Part shown: positions 1-9,390 of the stretch, piece after piece | Layout: each line of letters opens with the position of its first letter | How positions within the stretch are numbered: the stretch's first letter is position 1 | Source: Candidatus Aquicultor sp. | GTDB taxonomy: Bacteria > Actinomycetota > Aquicultoria > Aquicultorales > Aquicultoraceae | Direction: 5' to 3' | DNA: 36,214 nt | Assembly (NCBI GenBank): GCA_030682615.1 | Contig: JAUXNY010000137.1 | Span: 1 to 36,214 of the forward strand | Translations under genes and position numbers: made by a program | The notes under the pieces: generated by a model | What the model was told of the DNA's origin: nothing | The model's input: the letters and a program-made list of their open reading frames with translations, nothing else | The model's database searches: none

Positions 1-37
1 GCTATAAGTATTCCAATATCGGGACTGCCGCCCATAT

Positions 38-54
38 ATACCCCCTACCGGTAT
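38..54. promoter_or_regulatory. CsoR-type operator candidate at left edge
   Basis: The sequence ATACC-N7-GGTAT is a perfect 5-bp dyad around a C-rich centre. With flanks it reads TATACCCCCTACCGGTATC, which has the same edges (TATA...GGTATC) as the site in front of copA at 6754-6772. CsoR copper sensors are known to bind C/G-tract dyads of this general kind. It lies about 75 bp upstream of the blaI promoter, so it could belong to blaI or to a gene left of the window. Assignment to CsoR is inferred from similarity to the copA and csoR sites. Confidence 0.45.
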
Positions 55-128
55 CAGTATTCTTCAATCATTCTATCACAAGAATGCCGGAAGTGAAGAG
101 ATTTTTCACACAAAAGGCGTGTCTAATA

Positions 129-157
129 TTGGCAAACTGACAAAAAAAGGATATACT
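129..157 (+). promoter_or_regulatory. Promoter of the blaI-M56 operon
   Basis: TTGGCA at 129-134 and TATACT at 152-157 are separated by exactly 17 bp, a good vegetative sigma-factor promoter. The -10 box overlaps the left half of the dyad at 154-170, which predicts that the downstream repressor shuts off its own promoter. Confidence 0.75.
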
Positions 158-170
158 ACAAAGCATAGTA
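154..170. promoter_or_regulatory. BlaI-type operator 1
   Basis: TACTA-N7-TAGTA is a perfect 5-7-5 inverted repeat lying on the -10 box and likely start site of the blaI promoter. The same arms and spacing recur at 1620-1636. BlaI/MecI/CopY repressors bind dyads of this size near their own promoters, so this is the likely autoregulatory operator. Confidence 0.7.
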
Positions 171-201
171 AATCGTTTACGCTTTTTTTTGAGAGGTTTC
201 T

Positions 202-627
202 ATGAAGCGGTTTAAGCTGGGGAGTTTCCGACCGTCCGAATCGGGCGTTAGAAAGATGCTCGGTGATCTTGAGGCCGATATAATGGAGCTTGTGTGGGAG
301 AAAGATCTCGCAAGCGTAAGAGAGATCCACGGTATCCTCGAGAGAGACAGGGAAATCGCATACACGACCGTAATGACGGTCATGAGCCGCCTGGCCGAGA
401 AAAACATTCTTTTTCAGGAGCGTAACGGAAAGCAATACCTCTACAAGGCTCTTCTAAGCAAAGAAGAGTTCAACCAGACCATGTTCGCCTCGGTATTCAA
501 CGGTTTCCAGGAAGATCTCGGAAAACAAGCACTGAGTTTTTTTGTCGAGAACATCACCGAAGACACAGCGACCCTCGACGAGCTCGAGCGCCTGATTCAG
601 CAGAAGAGAAGGCAGATAGAGGAATGA
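202..627 (+). CDS. BlaI/MecI/CopY-family transcriptional repressor
   Basis: This 141-residue protein has the winged-helix Penicillinase_R fold: the N-terminal half carries the typical LEADIMELVW and YTTVMTVMSRLAEK segments (about residues 23-75) and the C-terminal half forms the dimerisation helices. The ATG is preceded by GAGAGG at 191-196. Family members are dimeric repressors inactivated when a partner M56 membrane protease cleaves them. The next gene encodes such a protease and overlaps this one by 4 bp (ATGA), so the two are translationally coupled. The protein has no cysteine and therefore lacks the C-terminal Cys motif by which enterococcal CopY senses copper directly. If the pair responds to a metal, sensing must lie in the protease. 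The operator at 154-170 covers its promoter. Confidence 0.9.
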   Translation: MKRFKLGSFRPSESGVRKMLGDLEADIMELVWEKDLASVREIHGILERDREIAYTTVMTVMSRLAEKNILFQERNGKQYLYKALLSKEEFNQTMFASVFNGFQEDLGKQALSFFVENITEDTATLDELERLIQQKRRQIEE

Positions 628-1598
628 CCAAGACGCCCTCGCGAAATACGCGCATCAGTATAATAGGTCTTCTTGTCTTGGGGGCCGCCGCGTTTGCGGC
701 AATCGGATATAACATCGACCGGTGGCTTGCGAACGGCGTTGCGGTAAAACGTGTCGCCGAGACTTGCGCGGGTTTCGGGACCGGATGCAAAGACGCCTAT
801 ATGTCTATTGCTCAAATCATAGGAAGCCCGCAGAACCTTCTGATAAGCCTGGCCATAGTGGCGCTTAGTGCGGCGCTGGTCAAAGCTGTTTTTGTGCTCG
901 CTTCAGCCAGGAGGATGGCGGCGGGCTATATAAGTATTGGGGAGGAATTGCCGCGCATTAAGCGTCTCTTGATAGGGCTGAACGCCGAAGACATGAAGGT
1001 CCGGGTAGCCGATGACGAGGCGCCGGCGGCGTTTACGCACGGTCTTCTTGCTCCCTCGATATGTATCTCTAAAGGACTTATTGAAAAATTAGAAGATGAT
1101 GAGCTGACGGCGCTCCTCGCCCATGAAATCGGCCACGTTCGGCGCCGCGACAACCTTGCGATTTTTGCCGCGCTCTTCGTCCGTGATTTTCTCTGGCCTC
1201 TCCCGATAAGCCACTATTTGCTTGCCCTGTTTGTCCGTGAGAAGGAGTATGCCGCCGATGACTTCGCGGTCGAGCTTACCGCAAAACCGGTCGAGCTGGC
1301 CGAGGCTATCGTCTCCGTGGCCAGAGCTACCCAGCGCAGTATGACGTTCTCGCCGGCGTACGCGACGTTTTTCTCCGGAAAAGCGACCGCTAAGGACCGG
1401 GTTCAACGTCTTCTCGACCCGGAGATAAAGGGGCGCCCCTCCATCTATAAGCTGATGCTTAGCATTGCCGTAAGCGCAACCATCGTTCTTATCGTTGCGG
1501 GCTTTGCATATGCGCAGCCGGCGGTAGATGCTAATGCGGTCGGTAGTTGTGGAATGGGACCGGAATGCGCGGTCATGAATTACGAATGCTGTAAGTAG
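624..1598 (+). CDS. M56-family (BlaR1-like) membrane metalloprotease with Cys-rich sensor parts
   Basis: This 324-residue membrane protein has zinc-protease motif HEIGH at 167-171 and a probable third ligand at E208 in KEYAAD, as in M56/M48 peptidases. Hydrophobic segments lie at about 12-30, 70-95, 178-205 (possibly a hairpin) and 276-298. With the basic N-terminus inside, the loop at 31-65 and the C-terminal tail at 299-324 face outward. Both carry cysteines: C48 and C55 in the loop, and C309, C315, C322 and C323 in the tail. There is no penicillin-binding domain of the BlaR1/MecR1 type. By family analogy it would cleave the BlaI-type repressor on receiving a signal. The Cys clusters and metal-related neighbours suggest that the signal is a thiophilic metal or thiol redox state, which is inference. 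Overlap with blaI indicates one operon. Confidence 0.85.
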   Translation: MTKTPSRNTRISIIGLLVLGAAAFAAIGYNIDRWLANGVAVKRVAETCAGFGTGCKDAYMSIAQIIGSPQNLLISLAIVALSAALVKAVFVLASARRMAAGYISIGEELPRIKRLLIGLNAEDMKVRVADDEAPAAFTHGLLAPSICISKGLIEKLEDDELTALLAHEIGHVRRRDNLAIFAALFVRDFLWPLPISHYLLALFVREKEYAADDFAVELTAKPVELAEAIVSVARATQRSMTFSPAYATFFSGKATAKDRVQRLLDPEIKGRPSIYKLMLSIAVSATIVLIVAGFAYAQPAVDANAVGSCGMGPECAVMNYECCK

Positions 1599-1618: not shown

Positions 1619-1637
1619 CTACTATGAGTTGTAGTAG
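1619..1637. promoter_or_regulatory. BlaI-type operator 2, upstream of the DUF2318 gene
   Basis: CTACTA-N7-TAGTAG is a perfect 6-7-6 dyad whose core TACTA-N7-TAGTA matches operator 1 in arms and spacing. It sits about 20 bp after the protease gene stop and 115 bp before the DUF2318 start. A TTGAAC element overlaps its left edge (1614-1619), but no convincing -10 box was found at the right distance. The repeat implies that the repressor also controls the transporter genes. Confidence 0.65.
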
Positions 1638-1752: not shown

Positions 1753-2427
1753 GTGGATAAGAACAACGCTAATGAAAGGCTCAAAGGCAAGCGCGCTCAG
1801 TTTGTCGAGCCGAAGAATAAAAAACCGGCGCTGCTCTATGTTGTGCTTAGCGTCGCGGTTATAGCAATAGTAGCTTTTATAGCCGTCTATGCAAGCTCAG
1901 GCAAGACGCCGGATGGGGGGCAACCGACAGATGTCGAGGCAAAGTATATCGGCAGGTATTTGCCGGCGGACTTTAAACCGGCAAAGCTGACCGAGCCGGT
2001 CGTCTACGACCGCAAGATAGACATGGTCCCGATTACTCCTGAGGTCAAGGACGGCAAAGTAATAATCAAAGCGGGAGATGTTATCAGTAGCCGTATCGTA
2101 TATTTCGAGTATCTCCGGCCGAAGGATAGCCAAATAATCTCGATGATGGCCTACATCAAGCCCTCGGGCAATCTCTTTACCGGAGTCAGTTTCTGCCCGC
2201 CCTGTGGGGCCAAATATCACCATTTTGAGGCCGACGGGACGCTGACATGTAATTCTTGCGGCACCAAACGCGACCCTGAGACCGAAGCCGGCATCTCCGG
2301 CGCGTGCAAGCTATATCCGGCCGACGAGATTGCGCACAAGCTTGTCGGTGAAAACATCGAACTAGCCGAGGCCGACCTGGTCGACTGGGAGTCGCAGCCG
2401 CTTGACAGGCCGGTCGGCGCGGAATAA
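1753..2427 (+). CDS. DUF2318 (FtrD-like) membrane-anchored Cys/His protein
   Basis: This 224-residue protein has one N-terminal transmembrane anchor (about 25-48) and a C-terminal DUF2318 domain. Visible ligands are C148-x2-C151, H156-H157, C166-x2-C169 and C185, in the family pattern SFCPPCG...DGTLTCNSCG...GISGACK. The family is annotated as Fe-S or metal-binding and occurs beside FTR1/P19 iron uptake genes. In Campylobacter jejuni a DUF2318 gene is followed by two permease genes and an ATPase gene, nearly the order seen here. Its exact reaction is unknown; a redox or metal-transfer role outside the membrane is likely. The GTG start is set by AGGTGA at 1741-1746. No FTR1 or P19 gene is visible in the window. 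Confidence 0.8.
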   Translation: MDKNNANERLKGKRAQFVEPKNKKPALLYVVLSVAVIAIVAFIAVYASSGKTPDGGQPTDVEAKYIGRYLPADFKPAKLTEPVVYDRKIDMVPITPEVKDGKVIIKAGDVISSRIVYFEYLRPKDSQIISMMAYIKPSGNLFTGVSFCPPCGAKYHHFEADGTLTCNSCGTKRDPETEAGISGACKLYPADEIAHKLVGENIELAEADLVDWESQPLDRPVGAE

Positions 2428-2520: not shown

Positions 2521-3051
2521 ATGGACGAGAGCAGGATTGAAGAGGTTAAGAGCGAAGCAGACGAGGTGAGCCCCAGGCGAAACACGAAGAGCCAGGTTCT
2601 CAAGTATGTGGGGATTTGGGTCGCGGTTGTCGCGCTCTTTCTCGTGTTCAACAACGTTATTAAGTCGGTTGCGTCGAACCAGGCAGCCACATCCAACAAT
2701 AGCGCCGGTTCTTTTAGCGCGGGGCAACCAGCCGCGTTCGAGCCGGGCGCGGGCACAGTCGCAGGCACCGGCACCGGCACAGGCGCTTGCGGTGGCGAAT
2801 GCTGTGACGCTCCTGCGGCCCAGGCCTCCGCTAGCGGTTCGCAAACCGGTGCGCAAGTAGCTTCGACGGACCTTGCTGCGATAGAGAAGGCCGCCATCGA
2901 TTATTATGCCGAGAAAACCGGCGACCGTGAAGTCACCGCCGAGGCTAAAAGCTTAGGCTGTCATCACGAGATCACGATTAAGAAGGACGGCAAAGCAGTC
3001 ACTGAGCTTTCTTTGAGAAACGGTCAGTTTACATCGTTGCGTCCCTGGTAG
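2521..3051 (+). CDS. Membrane-anchored Cys/His protein of unknown function
   Basis: The family is not recognised. The 176-residue product has an acidic N-terminus, one transmembrane segment (about 28-48) and a low-complexity linker rich in Ala, Gly, Ser and Thr. A C90-x3-C94-C95 cluster follows at the end of a Gly-Thr repeat. The C-terminal domain (about 115-176) contains C147-H148-H149 and ends in a predicted beta segment. Start ATG 2521 is chosen because TAAGGAGG at 2508-2515 precedes it; the longer GTG-initiated frame (2491) would run through that ribosome site. Position between the DUF2318 gene and the permeases, together with two thiol/His clusters, suggests an extracytoplasmic metal-binding or thiol-relay partner. 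That is inference. Confidence 0.7.
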   Translation: MDESRIEEVKSEADEVSPRRNTKSQVLKYVGIWVAVVALFLVFNNVIKSVASNQAATSNNSAGSFSAGQPAAFEPGAGTVAGTGTGTGACGGECCDAPAAQASASGSQTGAQVASTDLAAIEKAAIDYYAEKTGDREVTAEAKSLGCHHEITIKKDGKAVTELSLRNGQFTSLRPW

Positions 3052-3175
3052 ATGAAGTAATCGTCGCATGGCCGGCGGGCGCGCTGAAAGCGCTTGAAAG
3101 AGGGAGCTTGGACCCCTAAAGCCCTAGCGCCGACGACGAGTGTTTAAGATAAAAGATAATGTAAAGGTGAATTCT

Positions 3176-4339
3176 GTGAGGCTCCACCACATAACGTGGA
3201 AGAATATAAAGACGCATCCCGCGAAGGTCGCGCTATTGGTGACCGGGCTCGCTGTCGGCGTGGCGGTCATCGTCGGACTCTACACTGTCTCCAAGGCCAT
3301 GCACATGGACCTGCAGGACAAAATAGATGAGTACGGCGCCAATATGGTCATAACGCCCAAGAGCGAGAGCTTGCCTCTCACATACGCGGGTGTGACCGTC
3401 GGCGGCTTGCAGTACGGCTCGCAATTGCTCACCGAGAAAGACCTCGAGAAGATCCGCACTATAAAGAATAGCGCCAATGTAAAGGTCGTCTCGCCGAAAC
3501 TCCTCGGTATAGTCGAGGTAAACGGGTCGAAGATGATGCTCGCCGGGGTTCGCTTCAAAGATGAGCTGGAGCTTAAGAAGTGGTGGGAGATAAAGCAGGG
3601 TGTCCGTCCTGCCGACGACCGCGAGATTTTGCTGGGCGGCAAAGCGGCGCGCAGACTCGGGGCGGGCGCTGGGGACAGCCTGAACATCTCCGGCGAAAAG
3701 TTTCGGGTCGCCGGTGTACTCGGACAGCTCGGCACGGAAGAAGACCAATTAATATTTATAGGCATAAAGCAGGCTCAGACTATTCTTGAGCGGCCGGGCG
3801 AGGTCAGCTTCGTAGAGGTCTCGGCGTGGTGCAAAGATTGCCCCATCGACGACATAGTCGAGCAGATAAAGTGGAAATTGCCGGGAGCCAAGGTCGCGGC
3901 GGTGCGCCAAGCCGCCGAGACGCGCGACGCCGTCATCGGCCAATTCAACCTCTTCAGCCTCATACTCTCGGTTACCATGGGTGTCGTTGCCGCGCTCATA
4001 GTCTTTACTAACACGTTGAGCGCGGTTCGTGAGCGGCGCCGGGAAATAGGGGTCTTTCGCGCGGTCGGCTACCGCCAATCCCACATCGCCCTGATAGTTC
4101 TCTTGGAATCGGCTATAGTCGGGCTGGTAGCCGGCGTCAGCGGGTATCTCGCCGGTTTTCTAGCGGCGGGCTATATCGCGCCGGTCGCCACCGGTATGGA
4201 CGTCGGTGTTGTCTTCGACCCAATCGTTGCGGCTATTGCTGTCGGTAGTGTAGTGGTTCTCTCGCTGCTGGCTAGCTTGTATCCGGCGATAGTCGCCGCC
4301 CGCCTCGACCCGTCCGAGGCGTTAAACTCTATGATATAG
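3176..4339 (+). CDS. MacB/FtsX-type ABC transporter permease 1
   Basis: This 387-residue protein has the MacB/FtsX layout: one N-terminal membrane helix (about 20-40), a large extracytoplasmic domain of about 210 residues, and three C-terminal helices with the REIGVFRAVGYR segment characteristic of the family. It is a clear paralogue of the next gene, sharing landmarks such as VSPKLL and KKWW in the external domain. It differs in having a C219-x2-C222 pair (SAWCKDC) where the paralogue has no cysteine. Start GTG 3176 is preferred over GTG 3140 because AAAGGTGA at 3163-3170 precedes it and the resulting MRLHHITWKNI start aligns with the MRLDTIAFKNL start of the paralogue. The transported or extracted substrate is unknown. 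Confidence 0.85.
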   Translation: MRLHHITWKNIKTHPAKVALLVTGLAVGVAVIVGLYTVSKAMHMDLQDKIDEYGANMVITPKSESLPLTYAGVTVGGLQYGSQLLTEKDLEKIRTIKNSANVKVVSPKLLGIVEVNGSKMMLAGVRFKDELELKKWWEIKQGVRPADDREILLGGKAARRLGAGAGDSLNISGEKFRVAGVLGQLGTEEDQLIFIGIKQAQTILERPGEVSFVEVSAWCKDCPIDDIVEQIKWKLPGAKVAAVRQAAETRDAVIGQFNLFSLILSVTMGVVAALIVFTNTLSAVRERRREIGVFRAVGYRQSHIALIVLLESAIVGLVAGVSGYLAGFLAAGYIAPVATGMDVGVVFDPIVAAIAVGSVVVLSLLASLYPAIVAARLDPSEALNSMI

Positions 4340-4348
4340 GATGTTCTG

Positions 4349-5506
4349 ATGAGATTAGATACGATTGCTTTTAAGAATCTCGCGCGACGAAAAGGGAAGG
4401 CGGCGCTGGTCGTCGTCGGTTTGGCCATCGGTATTGCGACGATGGTCTCTATCGTCACCTTGATGCTCGCTTTCGAAAAGAGCATCGACACCCAGCTCGA
4501 CGCGTATGGCTTCAATATCGTGGTTTACCCCGCCTCTTCGAGCCTCTCGCTAAATTACGGTGGTATGAACATCTCGGGCGTCGACACGTTCGAGGTCGAG
4601 ACCTTGACCGAGGCGGATATCGAGAAGGCACGCCGGATTCGGAGCGCGGATGATATTACGGCCATATCGCCCAAGGTCTTGCAGGCAATCGAGGTCAAGA
4701 ATAAGAAGGCGCTGCTCGTCGGAGTCGATTTCGACGAGGAGTTTCAGGTCAAGAAGTGGTGGAAGGTCATGGGGCACAAACCTTCGTCGAAAGACCAGGT
4801 CATCCTCGGCTCGGATGCCGCAAAGAACCTCCGCCTCAAAGCGGGAGATTCGATGAGAATCGGCTCACAGACCTTTAAGGTGGCGGGGATTTTACATGAG
4901 ACCGGAAGCCAAGACGACGGCTTGGTCTTTAGCGATATCGAACGGGCGCAGGCGCTCTTCGGCCGCGGTCAAGAATTGAGCCTCATCGAAATATCGGCGC
5001 AGCGAAGCGACCAAATCGACAACGTCGTGGCTGAGCTGGAGAAGGCGCTTCCGGGTGCCGAGGTCTCCTCAATCAAGCAGGCGGTCAAATATCGGGAAGA
5101 AGCGATGGGCTCACTCGCGAGATTCGGGTTGATAGTGACCGCGATTATCATTATGATAAGCGGGTTTATAGTCTTTGTGACGATGACCTCATCGGTAAAC
5201 GAACGCAAGCAAGAGATCGGTGTATTTCGAGCGATGGGGTATCGGAAGTCGAGCGTTGCCCGGATAATTCTTACCGAGGCGCTGGCAGTCAGCGTTGTCG
5301 GCGGTATTGTAGGCTATATTGTCGGCTTTGGCGCCACATATGCGCTGCCGCAGGTCGTGCCAAGTATCGAGCTGCCGGTAACGGTCAGTTCGTCGGTCTT
5401 TTTGCTGGCGCTCGCGATAGCGGTCTTAGTCGGGCTTGTCTCGAGCTTGATGCCGGCACGCCGCGCCGCGAACATGGATCCGGCCGACGCGCTCAAAAGT
5501 CTTTAG
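4349..5506 (+). CDS. MacB/FtsX-type ABC transporter permease 2
   Basis: This 385-residue permease has the same plan as its upstream neighbour: an N-terminal helix, an extracytoplasmic domain and three C-terminal helices with QEIGVFRAMGYR. It starts only 9 bp after the previous stop, so the two are co-translated and probably form a heterodimer bound to the ATPase encoded next. The external domain keeps the KKWW landmark but lacks the CxxC of permease 1. Paired permeases of this kind with a DUF2318 protein are known from P19-type iron uptake clusters. MacB-type systems more often do mechanical work on periplasmic proteins or efflux than classical import, so direction cannot be read from sequence. 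Confidence 0.85.
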   Translation: MRLDTIAFKNLARRKGKAALVVVGLAIGIATMVSIVTLMLAFEKSIDTQLDAYGFNIVVYPASSSLSLNYGGMNISGVDTFEVETLTEADIEKARRIRSADDITAISPKVLQAIEVKNKKALLVGVDFDEEFQVKKWWKVMGHKPSSKDQVILGSDAAKNLRLKAGDSMRIGSQTFKVAGILHETGSQDDGLVFSDIERAQALFGRGQELSLIEISAQRSDQIDNVVAELEKALPGAEVSSIKQAVKYREEAMGSLARFGLIVTAIIIMISGFIVFVTMTSSVNERKQEIGVFRAMGYRKSSVARIILTEALAVSVVGGIVGYIVGFGATYALPQVVPSIELPVTVSSSVFLLALAIAVLVGLVSSLMPARRAANMDPADALKSL

Positions 5507-5518
5507 GAGGTTTTATTA

Positions 5519-6265
5519 ATGTCGCTGGTGATAGCGAACGGGGTCTGTAAATACTATGGAAACGATGAGGCTACGCGGGTGCATGCATTATGGCACGTCG
5601 ATTTTACGATAGCACCGGGCGAGTATATCGCGGTCATGGGTCCATCCGGGAGCGGCAAGAGCACGCTGCTGGCAATCTTGGGTGCGATGAGCCCGCCGAG
5701 CGAGGGCGTGCTCCTCGTCGATGACATCGATGTCTATGCGCTTTCGCAGGAGAAACGGGCCGATTTCAGGCGCGAATACCTGGGATTCGTCTTTCAGCAG
5801 CCACAGCTTATACCGTATCTTACGGCGCTAGAGAACGTGATGCTGCCGCTGGTCATATCCGACGTCAAAGACAAGAAAGGTCTGGCAGCTCAGATGCTCG
5901 AAAAAGTAAACCTCGGGGACAAAGCAAAGCGGTTGCCTTCGGAGCTTTCCGGCGGCGAGCAGAGCCGTGTCGCCATTGCGCGGGCCATCGTCAACGACCC
6001 GCCTATGCTCCTCGCCGACGAGCCGGTGGGTAGCCTCGACAGCAAGACCGGCTCCGAGATACTCGATCTTTTTCAAGCTCTGCACGCGGATGGCCAAACT
6101 ATAATAATGGTCACGCACAATCCTGAATCGATTCGCGATACCGGTCGTTTAATACAGCTAAAAGATGGTGTCATAGTAAGCGATGTGGCGACTGAGGCAG
6201 TGTTGTCCGCGTCAAGCGATGTTGTTGGTACGGGCGAGCGCAAACATAGCCTAGCTCACGATTAG
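5519..6265 (+). CDS. ABC transporter ATPase (MacB/LolD type)
   Basis: This 248-residue ATPase has every expected motif: Walker [10 protein letters not shown] (41-49), the Q-loop at VFQQPQ (91-96), signature LSGGE (143-147), Walker B with LLADEP (164-169) and the switch histidine H200. The subfamily is the LolD/MacB/FtsE-like group that pairs with FtsX-type permeases, fitting the two genes immediately upstream. AGGAGG lies 8-9 nt before the ATG. It is the last gene of the rightward metal operon and is convergent with csoR. Confidence 0.93.
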
Positions 6266-6333: not shown

Positions 6334-6609
6334 TTAGGTCTTTACGAAACGCTGGATTACATCCATCAGTTCCTGTATGGCTGAGTCCCCGTCCTCGCTC
6401 GACAGTGCCTCCCGCACACAGCCTTTGATGTGGTCATCAAGGATGATTAGCCCCACGCGTTGAGTCGCGCCGAGAACCGATGATATCTGGACTAGAATGT
6501 CGACGCAGTACTTTTCGTCGTTTACCATCCGCTGGATACCACGGAGCTGGCCCTCAATACGCTTAAGTCTTGATAAAATCTTTTCTTTGTCGGCTGTATA
6601 CGAAGTCAT
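6334..6609 (-). CDS. csoR: CsoR-family copper-sensing repressor
   Basis: This 91-residue all-helical protein has the family segment LKRIEGQLRGIQRMV and the Cu(I) ligand set C35-H60-C64 (KYC and DDHIKGC). This C-H-C pattern separates copper CsoR from RcnR and FrmR types. Apo-CsoR binds C/G-tract dyads and releases on Cu(I) binding. The start is supported by GAGGTGGAG just upstream on the minus strand. It is divergent from copA, its expected target, across a 333-bp region with a CsoR-like site near each promoter, so autoregulation together with copA control is likely. Confidence 0.93.
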   Translation of the reverse strand: MTSYTADKEKILSRLKRIEGQLRGIQRMVNDEKYCVDILVQISSVLGATQRVGLIILDDHIKGCVREALSSEDGDSAIQELMDVIQRFVKT

Positions 6610-6942: not shown

Positions 6943-9390
6943 GTGGAGACGATAAAAGTGATTCTTCCCGTCACAGGCATGACGTGAGCGTCGTGCGTGC
7001 GCCGCGTGGAAACGGCGCTTCAGAAAGTAGACGGTGTAATAGGTGTAAACGTCAGCCTGGCGAGCCGGAAGGCGACTGTTGAGATAGATAAGGGCAAAGC
7101 CTCGGTCGACGACCTTTTGGCGGCGATCAAAGAATCAGGCTATGATGTTGCAGCCGAAGAGCTGACAATCCCCATCGGTTTGATGACGTGCGCTTCGTGC
7201 GTGCGTCGCGTGGAGCAAGCGCTCCTCGCGGTAGAGGGAGTATTGTCCGCCAGCGTAAACCTGGCTACCGAAAAGGGGACCGTTGCGTATCTCCCGTCGG
7301 TTGTCACCCCGAACCGAGTCAAGCAGGCGATTATCGATGCGGGATATGAAGTGCGGGAGACTGAAGACGCGGAAGAAGCGCTTAAGTCGCGCACTGAAGC
7401 CGAAGAGATAAAGCGTCGCTTGATCATCGCCGCAGCGCTCACCGCCATCGTGATGATAGGTAGTATGCATGACCTTATCCCCGCGCTGATGTTGGTTCCG
7501 GCCAAGACGAGGTTTCTGATACTTTTAGCCCTGGCAAGCCCGGTTCAGTTCTGGGCCGGCTGGCGTTTCTACCGGGGCGCATATCTTACAGCCAAACACG
7601 GCACTACCGACATGAACACACTGGTTGCGGTCGGAACTACCGCAGCGTATCTCTATAGCATCGCGGTCACATTCGCCCCGGCGGTCTTCGAGGCCCAGGG
7701 GATCATGCCCGCGGTCTACTACGATACCTCGGCGGTGATTATCACCCTTATCCTTTTCGGACGATATCTTGAGGCAAAAGCTAAGGGGAGGGCTTCGGAC
7801 GCTATAAAGACACTCCTTGGGCTCCAGGCGAAGACCGGACGCGTAGTCCGTGACGGCCAAGAGGTCGATATCGCCATCGACGCAATCGTCGCCGGCGATA
7901 TCGTGCTGGTGCGACCCGGAGAGAAAATCCCGGTCGACGGCGTCGTGGTCGACGGCCATTCATCGATAGACGAGTCGATGATAACCGGCGAGAGTATCCC
8001 GGTCGAAAAGCGCGCAGGCGACGAGGTGATAGGTGCGACGATAAACAAGACCGGCGCATTCAAGTTCAGGGCGACCAAGGTCGGCAGCGAGACCGCCTTG
8101 GCGCAAATAGTGAAGCTCGTGGAGGAAGCGCAGGGCTCCAAAGCCCCCATCCAGCGCCTCGCCGACATCGTGGCCAGCTATTTTGTGCCGACGGTCATCA
8201 CCATCGCGGTGCTGACGTTTGTCGTCTGGTACGTCTTTGGCCCGAAACCGGCGTTTACGCCGGCTTTACTAAACTTTGTCGCGGTTCTCATCATAGCTTG
8301 CCCATGCGCGCTTGGGCTGGCCACACCGACGGCCATCATGGTCGGCACCGGCCAGGGCGCGCAGAACGGTATCCTTATCCGTGACGCGCAGGCGCTTGAG
8401 AATGCGCACAAGATAAACACAATCGTTTTGGATAAAACGGGCACTTTGACGCAGGGTAAACCGGTCTTAACCGAGATTGTCGCGGCAGGCGGGTTTGGCG
8501 ACGACGATATTTTGCGATTTGCCGCGTCGGCCGAACGCGGCTCCGAGCACCCGCTCGGTGAAGCGATAGTCGCCCGCGCCAAAGAGCGAGATCTCATCCT
8601 GGGCGAGCCGCGAGATTTCGAGTCGTTCACCGGCCGAGGCATCGGCGCGACCATCGATGGGCGCCGTGTGATGTTGGGCAACGCGCGTCTAATGGAGGAG
8701 CGCAATATCGCGCTCAACGACCTGGCTGCGGCCGCTGAAAAGCTCTCCACCGAGGGCAAGACGCCTATGTATGTCTCGGTCGACACGGAGGCGGTCGGCA
8801 TCGTCGCCGTCGCCGATGTCTTGAAGGAGAACTCGAAGGCCGCCGTTGGGCGGCTTAAGGACATGGGGCTCGAGGTAATTATGATAACCGGCGACAACGA
8901 GCGAACGGCCAAGGCTATCGCGAGCCAAGTCGGCATCGACCGCGTCTTCGCAGAGGTGCTGCCGGCCGATAAAGCCCGCGAGATAAAGCGCCTCCAGGAT
9001 GAGGGACGGGTCGTTGCTATGGTGGGCGACGGCATCAACGATGCACCGGCGCTCGCGCAAGCGAACATCGGTATCGCGATAGGGACCGGCACCGACGTCG
9101 CAATAGAAGCATCCGATATCACGCTGATCAGCGGCGACCTTCAAGGTCTGGTGACGTCGATTGCGCTCAGCCGAAAAACGCTCAAGACCATCTACCAAAA
9201 CCTGTTCTGGGCGTTCTTCTATAACATAATACTAATACCCGTGGCGGCCGGTGTTCTCTACCCGTTCTTCGGGATCAGCCTCAATCCCATGTATGCGGCC
9301 GCAGCGATGGCTTTAAGCTCGGTCTCGGTGGTATCGAACTCGCTGAGGCTTCGCAGGTTCAAGGCGCCGCAGCTCACAGCTTCGATATAG
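6943..9390 (+). CDS. copA: Copper-exporting P1B-type ATPase, candidate selenoprotein (in-frame TGA at codon 15)
   Basis: This 815-codon gene has two N-terminal heavy-metal-associated domains. In the first, the metal motif GMT-x-ASC has TGA at 6985-6987 where the first Cys belongs (C18 is present); in the second, the motif is intact (C83, C86). Then come TGES (348-351), the transport motif CPC (453-455), phosphorylated D497 in [13 protein letters not shown] (695-702) and the C-terminal FYN and MALSS-SVVSNS motifs of Cu(I) pumps. Start GTG 6943 follows AAGGTG at 6932-6937; ATG 6922 is in frame but lacks a ribosome site. If TGA were a stop, reinitiation at GTG 6997 would have no ribosome site and would lose the first motif. 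Reading TGA as selenocysteine restores a full-length protein and fits the hairpin at 6999-7018. A sequencing error or a true nonsense mutation is the alternative. CsoR is the divergent neighbour. Confidence 0.85.
6985..7018 (+). promoter_or_regulatory. Candidate bacterial SECIS element after in-frame TGA
   Basis: TGA is at 6985-6987. A perfect 6-bp stem GCGCCG (6999-7004) / CGGCGC (7013-7018) closes the 8-nt loop CGUGGAAA, which has GU at 7006-7007. The loop begins 17 nt after the TGA, inside the spacing usual for bacterial SECIS hairpins, whose apical loops carry a G-U. The matching stretch of the second metal domain keeps only three Watson-Crick pairs and one wobble of this stem, so the hairpin is specific to the TGA copy. 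Confidence 0.65.

Follow-up and report, generated by a model that had tools for sequence, protein, structure and literature searches.

A putative extracytoplasmic metal sensor of the BlaR1/BlaI type, with cysteine-bearing loop and tail, in an Actinomycetota MAG

Two overlapping genes of the window (the stretch of DNA analyzed here, an entire 36 kb contig, C26, of a 2.14-Mb Actinomycetota MAG) encode a BlaI-type repressor and a BlaR1-like membrane protease. We put the odds at somewhat better than even (about 55%) that they form a sensor of thiophilic metal outside the cytoplasm, most likely Cu(I), acting by repressor proteolysis in the manner of BlaR1/BlaI and PetP/PetR. The gene pair, its predicted operators, and the conserved residues are strongly supported by sequence comparison; what we infer is that metal binds, which metal it is, how it is bound, and in which direction the pair responds. 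On the whole, the analysis supports the original suggestion of a transmembrane proteolytic metal or thiol sensor. In a contig search, the nearest named relative is Candidatus Aquicultor primus, whose protease is 94% identical to that of the window.

In the proposed mechanism, the Cys-free repressor would bind TACTAY-N5-RTAGTA sites at the blaI promoter and before a FetABCD-like operon, silencing both. The protease would carry a composite outer sensor, made up of C48 and C55 in a loop equivalent to BlaR1 EL1 and C309, C315, C322, and C323 in its tail; Cu(I), or less likely some other thiophilic metal, might bridge or rearrange the thiols of the two, altering the contact between loop and tail. 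Movement of EL1 would then pass through the helix that follows it to the cytoplasmic zinc protease, as with beta-lactam displacement of EL1 in BlaR1, and the activated protease would free both promoters by cutting the repressor (before F114), while also cutting its own chain (before F250). The features concerned are listed in Table 1.

Table 1. Features of the window, with their positions, strand, and the basis of each assignment.
Feature	Position	Strand	Basis
Predicted sigma-70 promoter of blaI-M56, TTGGCA-17-TATACT	129..157	+	10/12 matches; shuffled sequence also gives such matches by chance
Candidate operator 1, TACTACAAAGCATAGTA, overlapping the -10 element	154..170	+	Palindrome search
BlaI/PenR-type repressor, 141 aa, no Cys; F114 aligns with BlaI cleavage residue F102	202..627	+	Pfam PF03965 E 5e-27; PDB alignment
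M56 BlaR1-like membrane protease, 324 aa	624..1598	+	HEIGH 167-171, E208, F249-F250 (autocleavage-site equivalent)
Predicted outer loop, residues 32-68, EL1 equivalent, with C48 and C55	717..827	+	Alignments, BlaR1 homology
Predicted outer C-terminal tail, residues 298-324, with C309, C315, C322, C323	1515..1595	+	Alignments
Candidate operator 2, TACTATGAGTTGTAGTA, between M56 stop and FetA-like gene	1620..1636	+	Palindrome search
FetA-like membrane-anchored DUF2318/FtrD protein, CxxC-x14-CxxC-x15-C	1753..2427	+	PF10080 E 6e-11; alignment
Small membrane-anchored Cys-rich protein (CGGxCC, GCHxE)	2521..3051	+	Motifs
FtsX/MacB-type permease 1 (FetB-like)	3140..4339	+	Pfam
FtsX/MacB-type permease 2 (FetC-like)	4349..5506	+	Homology and synteny in relatives
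ABC ATPase (FetD-like)	5519..6265	+	ORF; homologues in relatives
CsoR-family copper repressor; neighbor, probably a separate unit	6334..6609	-	PF02583 E 1.5e-29
CopA Cu(I)-exporting P-type ATPase; neighbor	6997..9390	+	Domain searches

The protease and its cysteines

The protease is a membrane protein with an HEXXH motif and a downstream Glu, and scores above the Pfam cut-off for M56 (40.7 bits; cut-off 31); M48 outscores M56, at 64.1 bits. Among solved structures it is most similar to BlaR1 by both structure and profile: BlaR1 ranks first in Foldseek, and Staphylococcus aureus BlaR1 is the top PDB match (E 7e-12) to a profile built from 16 relatives, in which positions 68-296 align to BlaR1 104-328. 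The gene overlaps the stop of the repressor gene. The original prediction, of an M56 protease without a beta-lactam-binding domain and with Cys at 48, 55, 309, 315, 322, and 323, agrees with these results: Pfam finds no penicillin-binding domain, the C-terminal tail is just 27 residues long, and all six Cys are present in the translation, along with C147. M56/BlaI pairs are usually taken to be beta-lactam systems (e.g., that of Clostridium thermocellum, PMC8457756), and the pair might thus be a BlaR1 system which still responds to beta-lactams or to the state of the cell wall after losing its sensor domain. Besides the missing domain, the absence from the operator sites of genes for a beta-lactamase or a PBP and a predicted regulon of metal and redox genes make this very improbable.

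By hydropathy, the protease has three strong helices (approximately residues 10-30, 70-95, and 274-297), with positive charges on their inner flanks. In the BlaR1 cryo-EM structure, EL1 (56-96) is extracellular, between helices 2 and 3, and contacts the sensor, which is likewise extracellular and comes after the last helix (PMC9834060). The profile alignment therefore puts the loop of the window protease in the EL1 position and its tail in that of the sensor, so that by homology to BlaR1 the two would share the same outer face, as had been supposed from the sequence. Since the first BlaR1 helix is missing, the N-terminus should be inside. The AlphaFold model (from six sequences) has a pLDDT of 60 overall and of 30–50 in the loop and most of the tail; because it is poor in these regions, no Cys-Cys distances are claimed.

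Across 12 orthologues (31–95% identical to the window protease), only seven of the 62 positions in loop and tail are invariant, those of W34 and of the six Cys, and the six-Cys pattern is not a matter of chance (hypergeometric p ~1e-7). In orthologues next to DUF2318 and copA genes the six are conserved, which was one of the checks set by the original prediction. At the other tail positions the window residue is kept in 41% of the sequences on average, and C147, predicted to be cytoplasmic, varies among the orthologues. The M56 paralogues beside other BlaI genes in the same and sister genomes (L053, L055, and a second copy at L044) have Cys-free tails of ~10 residues.

Six more distant members (L045, L046, L047, L048, L093, and L094) each have at least one loop and at least two tail Cys. 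These are fewer in L045, L047, L048, and L094, where the alignment is uncertain, and which Cys corresponds to which varies with the alignment used. Strict invariance of C48 and C309 in all distant members was considered but given up: in a second alignment, the loop Cys fall at other places in L045, L047, and L048.

Other arrangements are found in further BlaI-M56 pairs. In L113, L114, and L115, there is one loop Cys, and the tail is replaced by an extra helix which begins with Cys and continues with Met residues. L094, L119, and L120 have tails with two Cys and at least one His; no copper genes were found near these three with the queries used.

Repressor, cleavage sites, and operators

The repressor, originally predicted to be a Cys-free BlaI-type protein, indeed has no Cys in its translation. 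BlaR1 cleaves itself before F284 and cuts BlaI before F102 (PMC9834060); the residues aligned with these are F250 of the window protease, kept in 15 of 16 aligned proteases, and F114 of the repressor, kept in 17 of 17 aligned repressors. Repressor cleavage before F114 and autocleavage of the protease before F250 are predicted by alignment.

The candidate operator is a 17-bp palindrome, TACTAY-N5-RTAGTA, present twice in the window against an expectation of 0.05 (computed with up to one mismatch permitted). Autoregulation and control of the downstream operon are proposed, with the repressor as the presumed ligand of both copies. The two operator positions are kept in the relatives linked to FetABCD genes, with the exceptions of L047, where the blaI-side copy has one mismatch, and of G094; operator 1 is kept in those relatives possessing the upstream region. 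Pattern searches of the 2.14-Mb genome return just four exact sites: operators 1 and 2, a further copy of operator 1 on contig C37, and one on contig C117.

The C37 sequence (L072) is 95.5% identical to window positions 1-426 and continues into genes for CcdA and two multihaem cytochromes; it looks like a strain variant within the MAG. The C117 site (L073:1497-1513) lies ahead of a gene whose product, a secreted protein, belongs to no known family; a catalase gene comes next. An exact site of this type also occurs in two relatives (G020:C36 and G060:C22, the latter L077), with the same gene downstream in G060, so the secreted-protein gene may be a third member of the regulon. At a decaying locus in G094 (L054), the repressor is kept and, of the two operators, only the blaI-side one; the protease and ABC genes are gone and the DUF2318 gene is truncated.

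The predicted target operon and the nature of the signal

Metal-transport genes had been noted nearby, and domain searches identify FtrD/DUF2318, FtsX permeases, CsoR, and CopA. The FetA-like protein can be set beside the published DUF2318 motif, CxxC-x13-CxxC-x14/15-C (PMC6083913). For the Cys-rich protein encoded next to it, neither a Pfam family nor a PDB fold match was found; it is conserved within the operon, and is possibly an extracytoplasmic metallochaperone. Wherever the contigs of relatives extend far enough, G094 excepted, the gene order is CcdA (divergent), BlaI, M56, DUF2318, Cys-rich protein, FtsX, FtsX, ATPase, CsoR, CopA, with genes for multihaem NapC/NirT-type cytochromes beyond CcdA in the relatives checked.

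Several more distant pairs have other genes downstream. In G002 (L093), BlaI and an M56 protease with a four-Cys tail are followed by an exact operator and then by DsbD_2/cupredoxin, cupredoxin, and CopA genes; G244 (L046) has BlaI, M56, a DsbD_TM gene, and two one-mismatch operators ahead of the same three genes. L113, with its loop Cys and Cys/Met element, has the order BlaI-M56-CcdA-CopA. Judging by their gene content, the common theme of these operons is the handling of copper outside the cytoplasm. The placing of the L093 and L046 pairs, with operators, before cupredoxin-CopA operons is one argument for reading the signal as a metal; the CsoR and CopA genes that come after the operon in relatives are another.

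There are also arguments against copper. The regulated operon resembles FetABCDEF, which in Campylobacter jejuni is tied to iron and redox (PMC10783030, PMC6083913); CopA adjoins CsoR and has no BlaI operator of its own; and the genes found upstream in relatives include those for CcdA and multihaem cytochromes. The L047 and L048 versions adjoin CcmF, CcmH, and Cytochrom_C_asm genes, a cytochrome c assembly setting which would suit a redox signal and leaves room for one.

The main rival to metal sensing is of this kind: the loop and tail Cys would form or lose disulfides with the redox state outside the membrane (through CcdA, cytochrome c assembly, or oxidative stress), and so control the protease. 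The number of Cys, six, is even, and two of them are vicinal (CC); among the products of the operon is a DUF2318 protein with paired CxxC motifs; and FetABCDEF has been proposed to relay reducing power (PMC10783030). The divergent CcdA and two multihaem cytochromes of relatives, and the Ccm neighbors of L047 and L048, fit as well. However, the predicted regulation of cupredoxin-CopA operons in L046 and L093 counts against this proposal, and some members have Met, His, and odd numbers of Cys at the same places, a pattern that fits metal ligands better than disulfides. We consider a thiol-disulfide sensor rather unlikely, if still the foremost of the alternatives.

Ranked next, and less probable again, is signaling by a partner. 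The Cys would then be structural disulfides, and the protease would receive its signal from a protein such as the DUF2318 protein, the Cys-rich protein, or the ABC transporter of FtsX type, much as sensor kinases are signaled to by the transporters of Bce systems. The protease itself has next to no domain outside the cytoplasm, and transporter genes always adjoin it in family members that retain it, both of which would be in keeping with such an arrangement; but G244 and G002 carry the same pair without FetABCD genes, and, its Cys aside, the tail of the protease varies freely.

To return to metal sensing, the window protease might belong to a broad class of BlaR1-type proteases that lack the sensor domain and have so far gone unrecognized in Actinomycetota. 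Their EL1 loop, together with a short tail or else an additional, fourth helix, would hold a composite Cu(I) site of the Cys/Met/His type and reuse the EL1 route of BlaR1, with a shared operator controlling CopA-cupredoxin or FetABCD-like operons. This wider proposal is tentative, and we would give it somewhat less than an even chance; if true, it would mean a one-step proteolytic sensor for extracytoplasmic copper in Actinomycetota.

Comparison with known systems

Four known systems bear on the window pair. CopY/TcrY repressors belong to the same fold family as the window repressor, and TIGR02698 is its best NCBIfam match. However, at 67.9 bits it falls well below the cut-off of 121.95, it has neither the CxC metal motif nor any Cys, and a protease gene lies alongside; membership in CopY was therefore rejected, in accord with the distinction from CopY first proposed.

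In FetMP-FetABCDEF of C. jejuni and E. coli, as in the window operon, the gene order runs from a DUF2318 protein through two FtsX permeases to an ATPase. The window DUF2318 protein differs in being short and single-anchored, there is an extra Cys-rich protein, and control is predicted to be by BlaI, in contrast to the Fur site of C. jejuni. The FTR1 (FetM) permease was not found anywhere in the 2.14-Mb genome, and an FTR1-type iron uptake operon was rejected for this reason.

BlaR1-BlaI and MecR1-MecI of S. aureus resemble the window pair in their gluzincin membrane protease, the position of the EL1 loop, and, by prediction, autoregulated operators, as well as in the Phe predicted at P1′ of both the self-cleavage and the repressor-cleavage site. 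In contrast to BlaR1 and MecR1, the window protease has a Cys tail in place of the penicillin-binding sensor domain, and three predicted helices, N-in, where BlaR1 has four, N-out.

The closest functional parallel may be PetR/PetP of Synechocystis sp. PCC 6803, a BlaI/BlaR1-type pair in which copper-activated PetP is reported to degrade PetR (PMC7896320, PMC13421787, PMC10141476). Like PetRP, the window pair joins a BlaI-type regulator to an adjacent protease of BlaR1 type that lacks a penicillin sensor. The targets of PetRP are plastocyanin and cytochrome c6, while the window operators precede blaI and the FetABCD-like operon. By analogy, the window pair would work like PetRP. This precedent was missed in the original prediction, and the principle of proteolytic copper sensing is thus not new. 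The Cys-loop/Cys-tail anatomy and the Fet-like regulon appear to be undescribed: no account of Cys-tailed M56 sensors was found in the open-access literature, subscription papers being outside the scope of the search. With the window pair, proteolytic sensing of the copper type would no longer be confined to cyanobacteria but would reach uncultured Actinomycetota, in the form of a compact six-Cys sensor; the pair would also make non-beta-lactam sensing by BlaR1-type proteases directly testable. Moreover, the DUF2318/FtsX (Fet) system, itself poorly understood, would gain a regulator whose operators are clear, and with it a lead on the Fet substrate.
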